Assembly: GCA_018651345.1 (NCBI GenBank)
Contig: JABIEF010000027.1
Coordinates: 1 to 57,179 of the forward strand
From: Rhodobiaceae bacterium
GTDB taxonomy: Bacteria; Pseudomonadota; Alphaproteobacteria; Rhizobiales; TMED25
Reading direction: 5' to 3'
Length of the DNA stretch: 57,179 nucleotides
In this document: piece after piece, positions 37,964-50,785 of the stretch
How the letters are laid out: the number at the start of each line of letters is the position of its first letter
Numbering within the stretch: the stretch's first letter is position 1
Notes under the pieces: generated by a model
What the model was told of the DNA's origin: nothing
The model's input: the letters and a program-made list of their open reading frames with translations, nothing else
Database searches by the model: none
Made by a program: the position numbers and the translations under genes

Positions 37964-38792
37964 TTTTTTCACTATTTCTGGATCTTTGATAGTTCATAAT
38001 TGCAGCAGCTGTTTCTTCTATAGATCTTCTAGTTACATCTATTACAGGCCAATTATTTCTTGCAAACAATCTCTTTGCAAGAATTATTTCCCTTGAAACA
38101 ACATCTTTATCAACATAAGAAGAATCACGACCAGCATTAAGAGATTCCAGTCTATTTTTTCTAATTTGTACAATTCTTTCCGGACTAGCTATTAAACCTA
38201 CAATCAACGGGTCTTTTAATTTTTCCAAATCATCTGGTAAAGGAATATCTAAAACAAAAGGTACATTAGCTGTTTTCATTCCATGATTTGCTAAATATAT
38301 ACTAGTAGGTGTTTTTGATGTTCTACTAACACCTACTAGGATTATATCGGCTTCACTTAAATTACCCGTCATTCGACCGTCATCATTAGCCATGGTATAA
38401 TTCATAGCTTCAATTCTTTTAAAATATTCTGTATCCAAAACATGTTGAGCTCCAACTTTAGGAGACCATTCTGCGTCAATATATGAATTTAATACTTCGT
38501 GTACTTTATCTAATGGAGCAACTATTGGTAAGTTTAGTTTTTTACAAATAACTTCTAGTTTTCTTCTAAGGTCAAGATTTGAAAGTGTAAAAAAAACAAT
38601 ACCTGGTTCTTTTTCTATATTTTTTATAACATTATCTAATTGTTTTATACTTCTAACTAAGGGATAAACATGTTCTATTGACTCTATATTCCTATATTGA
38701 ACAATCACAGCCTTTGAAACAACGTTCAGAGTTTCTCCCGTTGAATCGCTGACTAAATGAATATGAAAACTAGAATTTATTTTTTTTTCCAT
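37950..38792 (-). CDS. PPSR: pyruvate, phosphate dikinase / PEP synthase regulatory protein
   Basis: PPSR both phosphorylates (using ADP) and dephosphorylates a threonine of pyruvate phosphate dikinase or PEP synthase. The 280-aa DUF299 protein has HLVSDSTGETL at residues 12-22 and the P-loop GVSRTSKTPTSIYLANHG near 154. The target enzyme is not in this window. It is the leftmost gene of the leftward-reading side of the candidate origin, and its start is the left limit of the gap. Confidence 0.94.
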   Translation of the reverse strand: MEKKINSSFHIHLVSDSTGETLNVVSKAVIVQYRNIESIEHVYPLVRSIKQLDNVIKNIEKEPGIVFFTLSNLDLRRKLEVICKKLNLPIVAPLDKVHEVLNSYIDAEWSPKVGAQHVLDTEYFKRIEAMNYTMANDDGRMTGNLSEADIILVGVSRTSKTPTSIYLANHGMKTANVPFVLDIPLPDDLEKLKDPLIVGLIASPERIVQIRKNRLESLNAGRDSSYVDKDVVSREIILAKRLFARNNWPVIDVTRRSIEETAAAIMNYQRSRNSEKNDKS

Positions 38793-39174
38793 TGTTAATA
38801 ACTTTGTAATTTCATGTATAAACCGTGATATTTCATATTTTAATTAAAACTATCCTACTTCTTAGTTTTTTTTTCCACATTAGATGTCCTGTTAATATCT
38901 TTATCAACAAGGTAATTGTTGTGTATATTAATAATAATTTCACACACCTATTAACAACTTTATTAACAATAACAATAATAAATAAATATACTAATAAACT
39001 AATAAAAACATGTTATCATAAGTATAATTTATAAAATTTATTAACAATATGTATAATTATTATTAATACAAATAATTACTGCTATTATAATTTGATAAAA
39101 GTATTAATAAACAATAATAACCGTAATGCACAGAGTAACAACAACAACAATTATAATATTAATATATTACTGAA
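38793..39174. other. Candidate chromosomal replication origin (oriC)
   Basis: The gap between PPSR and hemE is where the origin lies in Caulobacter and Rickettsia. It is very A/T-rich, especially 38970-39115, suitable as an unwinding region. DnaA-box-like nonamers cluster here: TTTTCCACA 38871-38879 (full match to TTWTNCACA), and with one mismatch TTATCAACA 38901-38909, ATATACACA on the minus strand 38920-38928, TTTCACACA 38938-38946, TTATTAACA 38960-38968, 39038-39046 and on the minus strand 38793-38801, and TAATGCACA 39124-39132. Flanking genes point away on both sides and parS/parAB lie about 9-12 kb right. An (AAC)n run (39137-39150) precedes hemE. Confidence 0.65.
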
Positions 39175-45085: not shown

Positions 45086-46405
45086 ATGCAGAAGGAAAAT
45101 TATAATTCAACAATATACGCACTTTCTAGTGCTGAAGGTAAAGCAGGTATTTCTGTTATTAGAGTATCTGGTAATAAAGCATCGGAAGTTATAAAAAAAC
45201 TAGGTGGAACAACAAGTTATCCTAGAATTGCAAAGATTATAAAATTAATTGACCCTGATAATGGTGAAATTGTTGATAAAGCAATTTCAATTTGGTTTCC
45301 AGGGCCAAATAGCTTTACGGGAGAGGACACAGTTGAGTTATTTGTGCACGGCGGTAGAGCTGTTATTGATAAAATTTTTGATATTTTAGCAAGATTCAAT
45401 GGATTAAGCTTTGCTGAGCCCGGTGAATTTACAAAAAGATCCTTTATGAATGGAAAGCTTGATCTTACATCTGTTGAAGGACTGGCTGATTTAATTAATG
45501 CGGATACAGAATTACAGAGGAAGCAAGCGCTTTCACAGATGGAGGGGTCTCTTTTTAAATTATATGATAATTGGAGAACAATGTTAATTAAAAGTCTATC
45601 TTATATAGAAGCAAATATAGATTTCATTGAGGAAGACTTGCCTAAAAATCTTTTAGAAAAAGAAATGTTATCTGTAGGTATTATATTAGATCAGATAAAT
45701 AGGCACCTAGCAGATGGTAAAAAAGGAGAAAGACTCAGAGATGGCTATAGAGTGGTTCTAGCGGGAGCTCCTAATACGGGAAAGTCTAGTTTATTAAACT
45801 TACTATCTAATAGAGATGTTGCGATCGTTTCTTCAGAGCCAGGGACAACTAGAGATATCATTGATGTTTATTTAGATATAAATGGTTGTCCTATTATCAT
45901 AAGTGATACGGCTGGTATTAGAGATAGCGATTCTAACATTGAACAGCAGGGAATCGATAGGGCAAAAGCTAGAATAGCTGAATCAGATTTAATATTATGG
46001 TTAAAAGACTCAAGTTTAAAAGAAAATATAGCATATCCGTATAGCTCTGATAAGAATATTATAGAAGTTTCGACTAAATCTGATATAAGTATTATAGAAA
46101 GAGACGGTCTTTGTATTTCAGTGAAAGATAATTCAGGTATAGAGGAACTAATTGATTTAATTGGTATAAATGCTTTAAATGGTTGTGCAACAGAAGGTTC
46201 TTTTATTACTAGAGGAAGGCATAGGGATTCTTTAATTAAAATAAGTAATTCATTAACAAATGTTATTCATATAGATCTTGGTAGCATTGAGATAATTGCT
46301 GAAGAATTAAGAAGCGCATGTAATGCATTAGGGAAGATAACAGGTAGAGTTGATGTTGAAGATTTATTAGACGTAATATTTTCAGATTTTTGTATTGGTA
46401 AATAA
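45086..46405 (+). CDS. mnmE: tRNA modification GTPase MnmE
   Basis: With MnmG, MnmE adds the carboxymethylaminomethyl group to U34 of certain tRNAs. The N-terminal folate-binding domain has the YALSSAEGKAGISVIRVSG start; the inserted G domain has GAPNTGKSSLLN and DTAGIRD; and the protein ends in the catalytic CIGK. The length of 439 aa is slightly short, with the shortening within the G domain. mnmG follows after 47 bases. Confidence 0.97.
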   Translation: MQKENYNSTIYALSSAEGKAGISVIRVSGNKASEVIKKLGGTTSYPRIAKIIKLIDPDNGEIVDKAISIWFPGPNSFTGEDTVELFVHGGRAVIDKIFDILARFNGLSFAEPGEFTKRSFMNGKLDLTSVEGLADLINADTELQRKQALSQMEGSLFKLYDNWRTMLIKSLSYIEANIDFIEEDLPKNLLEKEMLSVGIILDQINRHLADGKKGERLRDGYRVVLAGAPNTGKSSLLNLLSNRDVAIVSSEPGTTRDIIDVYLDINGCPIIISDTAGIRDSDSNIEQQGIDRAKARIAESDLILWLKDSSLKENIAYPYSSDKNIIEVSTKSDISIIERDGLCISVKDNSGIEELIDLIGINALNGCATEGSFITRGRHRDSLIKISNSLTNVIHIDLGSIEIIAEELRSACNALGKITGRVDVEDLLDVIFSDFCIGK

Positions 46406-46452: not shown

Positions 46453-48330
46453 ATGCATAAAAATAAACAATATGATGTGATAGTGGTCGGTGGAGGTCAC
46501 GCAGGATGTGAGGCTGCAGCCGCATCTGCTAGGGTTGGTGCAGCTACATTACTGGTTACACATAAATTTGATACTATTGGAGTTATGTCTTGTAATCCAG
46601 CAATAGGAGGATTAGGCAAAAGCCATTTAGTGCGTGAAATAGATGCATTAGATGGTGTTATAGGCGTAATTGCTGATAAAGCAGCTATACAATACAGGTT
46701 GCTTAATCGTAGGAAAGGACCTGCAGTTAGGGCTCCAAGAATTCAAGCTGACAGAGATATATATAAAAAAGAAATGCAAGATAAATTAAGTCATTATAAT
46801 AATCTTGATATAATTTCTGATACCTGCGTTGACCTAATCGTTGAAAATAAAATATGTAAAGGTATAGTTATTTCCAACGGTTCTCAGATTAATTCAGTTT
46901 CTACTGTAATAACAACTGGCACTTTTCTTAATGGATTAATTCATATTGGTAAAACAAAGTATCCAGCAGGACGTGTTGGCGATTCACCAGACTTGCATCT
47001 TTCAAAAAGATTTAGAAAAATTGGTTTTGCCCTAGGTAGACTTAAAACTGGTACCCCTCCAAGAATAGATGCAAATTCAATAAATTGGAAAGAACTTGAA
47101 GAGCAAAAAGGTGATGAAGATAAAACGTTTATGTCATTTTTAAGTAATAAAACAAATCTTCGTCAGGTTTCTTGTTATATTACAAGAACTACCAAAGAAA
47201 CACATAAGATTATTCTAGATAATTTAACAGACGCACCTATATATTCTGGTCAAATAGATTCAAAGGGCCCAAGATATTGTCCTTCTATTGAAGATAAAGT
47301 TGTACGGTTTGGGGAAAGAGATGGCCACCAAATATTTTTGGAACCGGAAGGATTAAATTCAAATACAGTCTATCCAAATGGTATTTCTACATCTTTATCT
47401 GAAGAGGTACAAAGAAAAATAATCGCATCTATACCTGGATTAGAAAGTGCAATTATACAAAGACCGGGGTACGCAATTGAATATGATTATGTAGACCCAA
47501 GAGAGCTAAGTATTACTTTGGAAACCAAGAAGTTAGGAAATCTATTTCTTGCTGGTCAAATAAATGGAACAACAGGGTATGAGGAGGCAGCTGCTCAAGG
47601 CCTAGTAGCAGGGATTAATGCGGCAAACAAAGCATCTAGCAGTAGCGCATTTGTATTAGATAGGTCTGATGCATATATAGGCGTTATGATAGATGATTTG
47701 ATAACAAAAGGTGTCACAGAGCCATATAGAATGTTTACATCAAGAGCAGAATATAGGCTAACTCTCCGTTCAGATAACGCAGATCAGAGATTAACTCCTT
47801 TGGGAATTAAAATAGGATGTATTGAGAAGCATCGAAAAGATTTGTTTGATAAAAAAATGATTAACCTAGAGAATGCAAGAAATTTAGCTAAAAGTTTAAT
47901 TATAACTCCATCAAAATTAACGTCATATGGTTTAAAAATTAATCAGGATGGGGTTAAAAGAAATGTTTTAGACCTTTTAGCTTATTCAGAGATAGATATA
48001 GGGGTATTATCAAAGATATGGCCTGAATTAAATGATATTAAAAAAGATGTAGCGGAGCAATTAGAAGCAGATGCTCTCTATGCTGGTTATCTTGACAGAC
48101 AAGACGCAGATATCATGTCCTTTAAAAAAGATGAAAGTTTATTGATACCAGATAATATTAATTACAGAGATATTAATGGTTTGCCAAATGAGGCATGCGA
48201 AAAGTTAACTAAATTGAAACCTGCATCAATAGGTCAGGCTGCAAGATTAGAGGGAATAAATCCAGCTACAGTTCTCGCAATACTAGCACATTTAAAATCC
48301 AGATCTTCTCGTAAGATTAAACAAGCATGA
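46453..48330 (+). CDS. mnmG: tRNA uridine-5-carboxymethylaminomethyl modification enzyme MnmG
   Basis: MnmG is the FAD partner of MnmE in tRNA U34 modification. The FAD loop [19 protein letters not shown] is at residues 11-29, with [21 protein letters not shown] and [11 protein letters not shown] as further family motifs. A C-terminal helical domain binds MnmE. The length of 625 aa is normal. It leads into rsmG 16 bases later (mnmE-mnmG-rsmG-parA-parB). Confidence 0.98.
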
Positions 48331-48346
48331 ATTGTATATTAAATAT

Positions 48347-48970
48347 ATGAATACATGGAACAGAGACACTGTAGAAAAATATTTCAATGTTTCACGTGAA
48401 ACATTAGATAAATTTGATATATATGTTGATTTGTTACAAAAATGGCAATCTAAGGTTAATTTAATAGGACCTTCTACAACTGAAGATATTTGGGGTAGAC
48501 ATATAGCTGATTCACTTCAGTTATTGAAATTTATACCTTTGGACATCAAGAATTATATTGACTTAGGTTCTGGAGCAGGAATACCTGGATTGATATTAGC
48601 GATTTATTATGATGACCCTAGTATTAATTTTCATTTGATTGAATCTAATCATAAAAAATGTGCTTTTTTACAGACAGCGGCAACTCATTGTAACGTTCAA
48701 ATTATAATACATGAAGATAGAATTGAAAGTTTGCATATAAATAATAACTTAAAAGCTGACATTATTACTGCAAGGGCACTTGCTCCATTAAGTAAGCTAA
48801 TGGATTTGTGCTATCCTTTTGTGTGGAAAAAAACTGTTTTATTGCTACAAAAAGGAAAAGATGTAAAAAGAGAATTGACCAATTCTTCTATATATTTAAA
48901 TATGAATGTAGATATAGAGCAGAGTATAGTTGATACGGATTCCTCAATATTAATAATTAGGTCAAAATAA
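48347..48970 (+). CDS. rsmG: 16S rRNA (guanine(527)-N7)-methyltransferase RsmG
   Basis: RsmG methylates N7 of G527 of 16S rRNA with SAM; loss gives low-level streptomycin resistance in other bacteria. The SAM motif DLGSGAGIPGLILAI is near residue 65 and IGPSTTEDIWGRHIADSLQL precedes it. The start at ATG 48347 gives 207 aa; an in-frame TTG at 48332 would add five residues. The N-terminal codons for NVSRET contain a perfect parS site. Its TAA touches the parA ATG. Confidence 0.95.
   Translation: MNTWNRDTVEKYFNVSRETLDKFDIYVDLLQKWQSKVNLIGPSTTEDIWGRHIADSLQLLKFIPLDIKNYIDLGSGAGIPGLILAIYYDDPSINFHLIESNHKKCAFLQTAATHCNVQIIIHEDRIESLHINNNLKADIITARALAPLSKLMDLCYPFVWKKTVLLLQKGKDVKRELTNSSIYLNMNVDIEQSIVDTDSSILIIRSK
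48388..48403. promoter_or_regulatory. parS centromere-like site (ParB-binding)
   Basis: TGTTTCACGTGAAACA matches the universal chromosomal parS 16-mer exactly. The dyad extends two bases on each side to a 20-bp perfect palindrome (48386-48405). It lies inside the 5' coding part of rsmG and encodes NVSRET. It is 0.6 kb from parA, 1.4 kb from parB and about 9.3 kb right of the candidate origin. It is the only such site I found in the window. Confidence 0.95.
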
Positions 48971-49825
48971 ATGTTTGGTTTTATTGGTAAAAAAATAAAA
49001 AATGTTGAAAGGCCTATTGGTAAACCAAGAGTCTTAGTCTTTGCCAACCAAAAAGGTGGCGTAGGAAAAACAACGACTGCTATAAATTTAGGATGTGCAA
49101 TAACGGAAAAAGGATACAAAGTCCTAATAATAGACTTAGATCCACAGGGAAACGCATCTACTGGACTCGGTATAAATAAAGAATCAAGAGAATTTTCATC
49201 ATATGACGTACTGGTTGATCAGATGTCTATAGGAAAGGCAACAGTAAAAACTACTGTAAATGATTTATATTTAGTTCCTTCAACCTTAGATTTATTGGGT
49301 ATTGAGGCTACTTTAGCAAGTGATAAAAATAGATCATTCAAGCTTAAAGATGCAATACAAAATATGTTATTAGAAGCTACAACTACTGAAGATAATTATC
49401 ATTACATACTCATAGATTGCCCCCCTTCACTAAACTTACTGACAATTAATGCGTTAGTAGCATCAGATGCTGTCATGGTTCCACTCCAATGTGAATTTTT
49501 TGCCTTAGAAGGATTGGGCCAACTTCTTGAAACAGTAGATCACATAAGAAAAACACTTAATGAAAATTTAGTAATACACGGTATTGTTCTAACAATGTTT
49601 GATGAGAGGAATAACTTATCAGGTCAAGTTGAAAAGGATGTAAGAGAATATATGAGTGATAAGGTTTACAAGACAGTAATTCCAAGAAATGTTAGGGTAT
49701 CAGAAGCCCCTTCGTACGGTAAACCTGTATTAATATATGACCATAAATGTTCAGGATCTAAAGCTTATATAAAACTTGCGAGTGAGGTGTTAAGCAGAGA
49801 TAAAAATATGAAATATAACAATTAA
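48971..49825 (+). CDS. parA: Chromosome partitioning ATPase ParA
   Basis: ParA is the Walker-type ATPase that moves ParB-parS complexes and so segregates origins. The deviant Walker A KGGVGKTTTAINLG is near residue 33, the Walker A' DLDPQGNASTGLG follows, and DCPPSLNLLTINAL and VPLQCEFFALEGL are present. The length of 284 aa is typical, with a short N-terminal extension (MFGFIGKKIKN). It starts directly after the rsmG stop and precedes parB by 27 bases. Confidence 0.97.
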   Translation: MFGFIGKKIKNVERPIGKPRVLVFANQKGGVGKTTTAINLGCAITEKGYKVLIIDLDPQGNASTGLGINKESREFSSYDVLVDQMSIGKATVKTTVNDLYLVPSTLDLLGIEATLASDKNRSFKLKDAIQNMLLEATTTEDNYHYILIDCPPSLNLLTINALVASDAVMVPLQCEFFALEGLGQLLETVDHIRKTLNENLVIHGIVLTMFDERNNLSGQVEKDVREYMSDKVYKTVIPRNVRVSEAPSYGKPVLIYDHKCSGSKAYIKLASEVLSRDKNMKYNN

Positions 49826-49852: not shown

Positions 49853-50785
49853 ATGATTAACGATGATAGTATTAAAAAAAGAATAAACGAAAGTGAAAAT
49901 CATTCTAATAGGTTAGGTAGGGGGTTGGCATCTTTAATTGGTGACTCATCAAAAAATATGAGCATACCTGATAAGGCAGAGGCACAGACTGCGTTAGACA
50001 TTATTCCCATAGAATATATTCAAGCAAATACACAAAATCCACGAAGAGTATTTCATGAAAGTGAATTGATCGATTTATCAAACTCTATAAAAGAAAAAGG
50101 AATTCTTCAGCCAATTATTGTAAGGGCAATTGACGGTTCTCAAAATACATATGAAGTTGTTGCTGGTGAAAGAAGGTGGCGAGCAGCACAAATAGCAAAA
50201 TTAGATCAAATTCCAGTTATTATAAAAACACTATCTGATGTTGACGCATTAGAAATTGCAATCATTGAAAATGTTCAAAGGTCTAATCTATCACCAATTG
50301 AAGAAGCAACCGGATATAAGAATTTAATAGATACTTTTTCTTACACTCAAGATGACTTAGCTAAAGTTATTGGTAAAAGCAGGAGTTATGTAGCAAATAC
50401 TCTAAGATTGATGAACTTGCCTGTAAAGGTAATTGAATATCTGTCTAATGGTGAACTAACTGCAGGTCATGCTCGTGCTTTATTGTCTACTATGAATGCT
50501 GAAATATTGGCGGATCTGATTGTAAAAAAAGGATTAAGCGTAAGACAAACAGAAAATTTAGTAAAATCATCTATAAATAATCAAACAGATAAACTAAAAG
50601 TTATTGATGTAAGTACTCATAATAAAGATGATGTAGAGATTAGAGATTTAGAAAAAAATATAACAACAGAATTAGGTTTTAATGTTAAAATTAATAATAA
50701 TTCTAATAATTCAGGTAAAGTAGTTATTAAGTATTTAGATTTAGATCAGCTAGATCTGATAAGGAAAAGGTTATTAGGAAAGTAA
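49853..50785 (+). CDS. parB: Chromosome partitioning CTPase ParB
   Basis: ParB binds parS, spreads as a CTP-dependent clamp and recruits ParA. RLGRGLASLIGD at residues 21-32 resembles the N-terminal ParA-activating motif. The NPRRVFHESEL and VAGERRWRAAQ motifs (CTP and nucleotide pocket) are followed by ENVQRSNLSPIEEA, the helix-turn-helix (TQDDLAKVIGKSRSYVANTLR) and a C-terminal dimer domain. The length of 310 aa is normal. Its stop directly abuts the convergent holA stop. Confidence 0.97.
   Translation: MINDDSIKKRINESENHSNRLGRGLASLIGDSSKNMSIPDKAEAQTALDIIPIEYIQANTQNPRRVFHESELIDLSNSIKEKGILQPIIVRAIDGSQNTYEVVAGERRWRAAQIAKLDQIPVIIKTLSDVDALEIAIIENVQRSNLSPIEEATGYKNLIDTFSYTQDDLAKVIGKSRSYVANTLRLMNLPVKVIEYLSNGELTAGHARALLSTMNAEILADLIVKKGLSVRQTENLVKSSINNQTDKLKVIDVSTHNKDDVEIRDLEKNITTELGFNVKINNNSNNSGKVVIKYLDLDQLDLIRKRLLGK

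Follow-up and report, generated by a model that had tools for sequence, protein, structure and literature searches.

A very probable chromosomal parS within the start of rsmG and its likely imprint on an alphaproteobacterial methyltransferase

The window, the whole stretch of alphaproteobacterial DNA that we analysed (57,179 nt), carries the gene order dnaQ-coaE-maf-ppsR, hemE ... rho ... mnmE-mnmG-rsmG-parA-parB, holA. The mnmE-to-parB run lies on the plus strand and opens with mnmE (trmE; 45086–46405), followed by mnmG (gidA; 46453–48330) and by rsmG (gidB; 48347–48970), which encodes the 16S rRNA G527 N7-methyltransferase (TIGR00138, 142.9 bits against a cut-off of 99.5; PF02527). Its last two members are parA (48971–49825), encoding a Soj-type ATPase (PF13614 AAA_31, E = 2.3e-61), and parB (49853–50785), whose product has all three ParB domains (PF02195, PF17762 and PF23552). 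In ParABS systems, ParB binds parS, loads, spreads and is moved by ParA. An unstranded gap of 18% GC with TTATNAACA-type boxes (38793–39174), between the divergent ppsR homologue and hemE, is situated about 9.2 kb from the parS described below. Together with the gene order this gap looks like an alphaproteobacterial origin region, and synteny with other alphaproteobacteria makes it the probable oriC. With oriC so placed, the parS occupies the origin-proximal, parAB-adjacent location expected of a chromosomal site. It lies 0.6 kb from parA, and the first-pass annotation was right to place the site, parA and parB within 2.4 kb.

The feature itself is an unstranded palindrome, AATGTTTCACGTGAAACATT (48386–48405), which had been described as a perfect 20-bp palindrome with the universal parS at its core, encoding NVSRET of RsmG; direct inspection bears out each part of this description. 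The 20 bp equal their own reverse complement, the inner 16 bp, TGTTTCACGTGAAACA (48388–48403; 14-bp core at 48389–48402), match the consensus with 0 mismatches, and, with the rsmG start at ATG 48347, the palindrome is in frame and codes for N14 V15 S16 R17 E18 T19. Residues V15–T19 come from the parS core, 15 bases of parS doubling as rsmG codons 15–19. A parS can be read as VSRET in frame 0 or as FHVK in frame +1, and its third frame contains a stop. The next pair outward from the 20 bp is a mismatched C/A. We attach no significance to the 2+2 outer bases that separate the 20-bp palindrome from the 16-bp site: among rsmG genes with the exact site pairing falls off quickly, the first, second and third outer pairs being complementary in 56/63, 36/63 and 21/63 genomes, respectively.

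Within the window the 16-mer is the sole match at 0–2 mismatches (shuffle control, 0.22 matches at ≤3 mismatches). A 3-mismatch match at 38085 lies inside the coding sequence of the ppsR homologue and was rejected as a parS. The genome-wide scan that the first-pass annotation had proposed likewise returned this site as the sole exact copy, with zero copies at one mismatch (1.53 Mb, 79 contigs, 98.8% complete), in an assembly whose draft state means that a second site could have been missed. Two 2-mismatch copies are both on another contig (G000:C31:75230-75245 and 76558-76573; L002 and L003), one inside rpoD and the other inside a peptidase-like gene. We rejected them as parS; the pair is probably due to chance, although the spacing of just 1.3 kb is odd.

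The search near home covered 24 relatives together with the window's own genome, and 24 of these 25 carry the 14-mer; 12 of the 13 genus and family relatives searched have exactly one exact copy. Wherever the position was read (9/9 relatives, plus the window's own genome), that single copy lies at the same rsmG codons. In the alignment of these ten genes the site codons are invariant at 5/5 positions, as compared with 6/51 other codons for invariant residues, Met and Trp being left out of the comparison. This bears on the idea that the site is a decayed or non-functional parS kept by chance, a reading suggested by the fact that function is deduced here from sequence. Ten family members show no change in the site, while their synonymous positions elsewhere have diverged, and both ParA and ParB are intact; we consider decay exceedingly improbable.

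Conservation extends over the bacterial class. The 14-mer GTTTCACGTGAAAC is present in 242/289 alphaproteobacterial genomes, and a reversed-string control in 1/289. In an alignment of rsmG N termini, which the first-pass annotation had also suggested, 63 of the 121 alphaproteobacterial genes sampled have the exact 14-mer at the column of the window's site, always in the VSRET frame, with a variant of one or two mismatches at that column in 9 further genes. The sample comprises 120 class genes drawn from the best-scoring rsmG genes plus the window's own, and its genomes are related, so that these counts are not independent trials. A pattern made of the 14-mer plus the rsmG Trp codon that comes after it matched at least 118 stretches in named genomes; among the matches listed, titles are alphaproteobacterial (Bartonella, Brucella, Mesorhizobium, Rhodobacter, Magnetospirillum, SAR116 and others) or uninformative.

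We then asked which of the two molecules is under selection, the first-pass annotation having left it open whether the centromere restricts the protein sequence or the protein sequence maintains the site. VSRET might be conserved for RsmG function, with the palindrome as a by-product of coding: the motif is located where the part of the RsmG N terminus alignable with solved RsmG structures begins, and its residues are identical in every rsmG gene with the exact site. The codons argue otherwise. All five parS codons are used in 55/65 VSRET-bearing genes, against 0.16 expected from each gene's codon usage, and they are used whatever the genomic GC. In genomes with GC ≥0.55, the wobble bases are fixed to codons that are rare there, Ser being TCA in 27/28 cases at the site and in 13/317 elsewhere in rsmG. 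Among the 121 rsmG genes we found no VSRET lacking parS-like DNA at the column, and in the 49 genes that lack the site the residues at this position are unrelated to VSRET. Moreover, the protein follows the DNA when the latter drifts: GTTCCACGTGGAAC gives VPRGT (in G101 and also in G317, of another family), GTTTCATGTGAAAC gives VSCET and GTTTCACATGAAAC gives VSHET. The same VSRET and the same DNA also arise at other, non-homologous positions of RsmG. Conservation of VSRET for the enzyme's own sake is, on this evidence, highly improbable. Synonymous positions held beyond codon usage, and a protein that tracks DNA variants, are what selection at the DNA level predicts. Because of the codon choice, the lack of VSRET without parS-like DNA and the tracking of drift, the sequences support a direction of DNA over protein, in which the site would be kept for its own sake and would have shaped the residues of the enzyme; the question is largely settled for the DNA.

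Many rsmG genes contain extra exact parS copies elsewhere. The commonest is at alignment column 345, about 280 bp past the first, and others occur at columns 260, 283, 366 and 400–406. Of the additional in-gene copies that lie downstream of the first, a single one reads FHVK and the rest VSRET, a bias that is due in part to the stop in the third frame. The column-345 copy reads FLxxVSRET, within the methyltransferase domain, in several families (for example L061, L047, L014, L041, L078 and L113). A second parS, 1.9–2.1 kb upstream of the rsmG site and at the start of mnmG, is present in many relatives as well (L131–L248). The window's family is without it, and a search near the mnmG start of the window found no second parS, the best 14-mer there having 5 mismatches. 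In many relatives this copy overlaps the mnmG translation start in one of two ways: either the parS contains a GTG, with AGGAG spaced ahead of that codon, or an ATG immediately preceding the parS gives MFHVKH-YDVIVIGG.

A chromosomal parS is expected to be accompanied by a cognate ParB with parS-specific helix-turn-helix residues, and the window encodes one. Its ParB aligns to Caulobacter ParB (6t1f, E = 5e-63), and the DNA-contact residues Q162, G170, K171, S172, R173, N178, G201 and R204 (Caulobacter numbering) are all conserved. The residues that set ParB/Noc specificity are R173, T179, A184 and G201 (PMC7383237). The window ParB resembles a parS-specific ParB in R173, T179 and G201 and has Asn at residue 184, a position reported to tolerate any residue (PMC7383237). 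In published structures residue 201 faces base 6 of parS, and G201 has been described as absolutely conserved among extant ParB orthologs (PMC7383237). Our comparison set agrees: residue 201 is Gly in 90/90 and residue 204 is Arg in 90/90 ParBs with both positions readable, drawn from named alphaproteobacteria with a canonical rsmG parS, plus the window and G266.

One genus, that of G109, differs from this description in having Ala201 together with an altered parS base 6. Ala201 was found in 9/9 of its ParBs that were read (L269, L273–L275, L277–L279, L281 and L283). Across ten members the rsmG site varies solely at bases 6, 8 and 9 of 14, and the upstream second site of the same genomes solely at bases 6–9; the two copies are identical in 6/10. 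The versions of bases 6–9 seen in this genus are GCGC, TCGA, CCGA and TCAA. As judged from these alignments, the Ala201 lineage ties the rsmG palindrome to ParB through what is one evolutionary event, and the G109 genus is, on the same comparison, a natural drift of centromere specificity. ParB changes accompanying other variants are single cases (R204K in G101, G170D in G074 and a loop-adjacent change in G317) and could be coincidence.

Taken together, these observations make it very probable that this alphaproteobacterium has its chromosomal parS in the palindrome, most likely with no other strong site. The parB gene, 1.5 kb downstream, would supply the ParB dimer that binds the palindrome through its helix-turn-helix, a step that we infer from homology and co-variation. 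Bound ParB would then load as a CTP clamp and spread across the mnmG-rsmG-parAB region, and ParA would move the ParB complex, such that the origin region segregates first. A different role is conceivable for a site within the gene directly upstream of parA and on the same strand, namely that of a mainly regulatory operator, at which ParB inside mnmE-mnmG-rsmG-parAB represses parAB or rsmG; in Pseudomonas, ParB acts from the intergenic parS3 and parS4 to repress the neighbouring genes (PMC7022226). The sequence, however, matches bona fide parS rather than a divergent operator. Since neither the genome nor the family offers another exact parS, the site must also be the centromere if ParABS works. 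We consider a mainly regulatory function unlikely. Damping of downstream parAB transcription is a possible side role for ParB at what we take to be a centromere.

The arrangement can be set beside two characterized alphaproteobacterial systems. Caulobacter crescentus likewise has a ParABS system with parS about 8 kb from ori, but five or more strong sites fall within 5 kb there, whereas the window's family has a single exact one; the Caulobacter parS sites are stated to lie in essential or costly genes, and the main text does not mention rsmG or gidB (PMC5815017). In Hyphomonas neptunium, parAB is preceded by two parS that match the consensus perfectly and lie about 7 kb from hemE, as against one in the window's family, and the Hyphomonas ParB binds parS in vitro by gel shift; the accessible text does not discuss whether these sites lie in rsmG or at mnmG (PMC6650430). 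A further paper that matched searches for parS with gidA and gidB does not name gidB in the accessible part of its main text (PMC6315104). We found no literature joining RsmG with ParB and parS, a weak absence in a search mostly without subscription papers. Intragenic parS are already known; the class-wide footprint in RsmG and the Ala201 lineage are the parts that a specialist may not know.

On balance we think it likely that, in Alphaproteobacteria, a centromere has shaped an rRNA methyltransferase sequence: in rsmG, parS recurs in frame at several distinct places, almost always read as VSRET, the residues or codons of the enzyme would shift with ParB specificity, and the Ala201 genus would represent base-6 drift in both copies together. 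The rsmG coding sequence could then record how the centromere has evolved, being easy to align and giving a readout of parS over a bacterial class. VSRET, a footprint conserved together with the site, should not be taken for an enzyme motif. Variants of the site flag lineages with a possible natural change in ParB specificity, of which the Ala201 genus is the clearest and offers a direct test of co-evolution between a partition protein and its centromere.

The alphaproteobacterial genome G195 (L293–L295) contains 79 exact parS 14-mers in short clusters across many contigs, and these clusters also include variants such as GTTTCACGAGAAAC and GTTTCGCGCGAAAC. Six other genomes (G181, G172, G004, G249, G218 and G272) carry 10–18 parS copies each.
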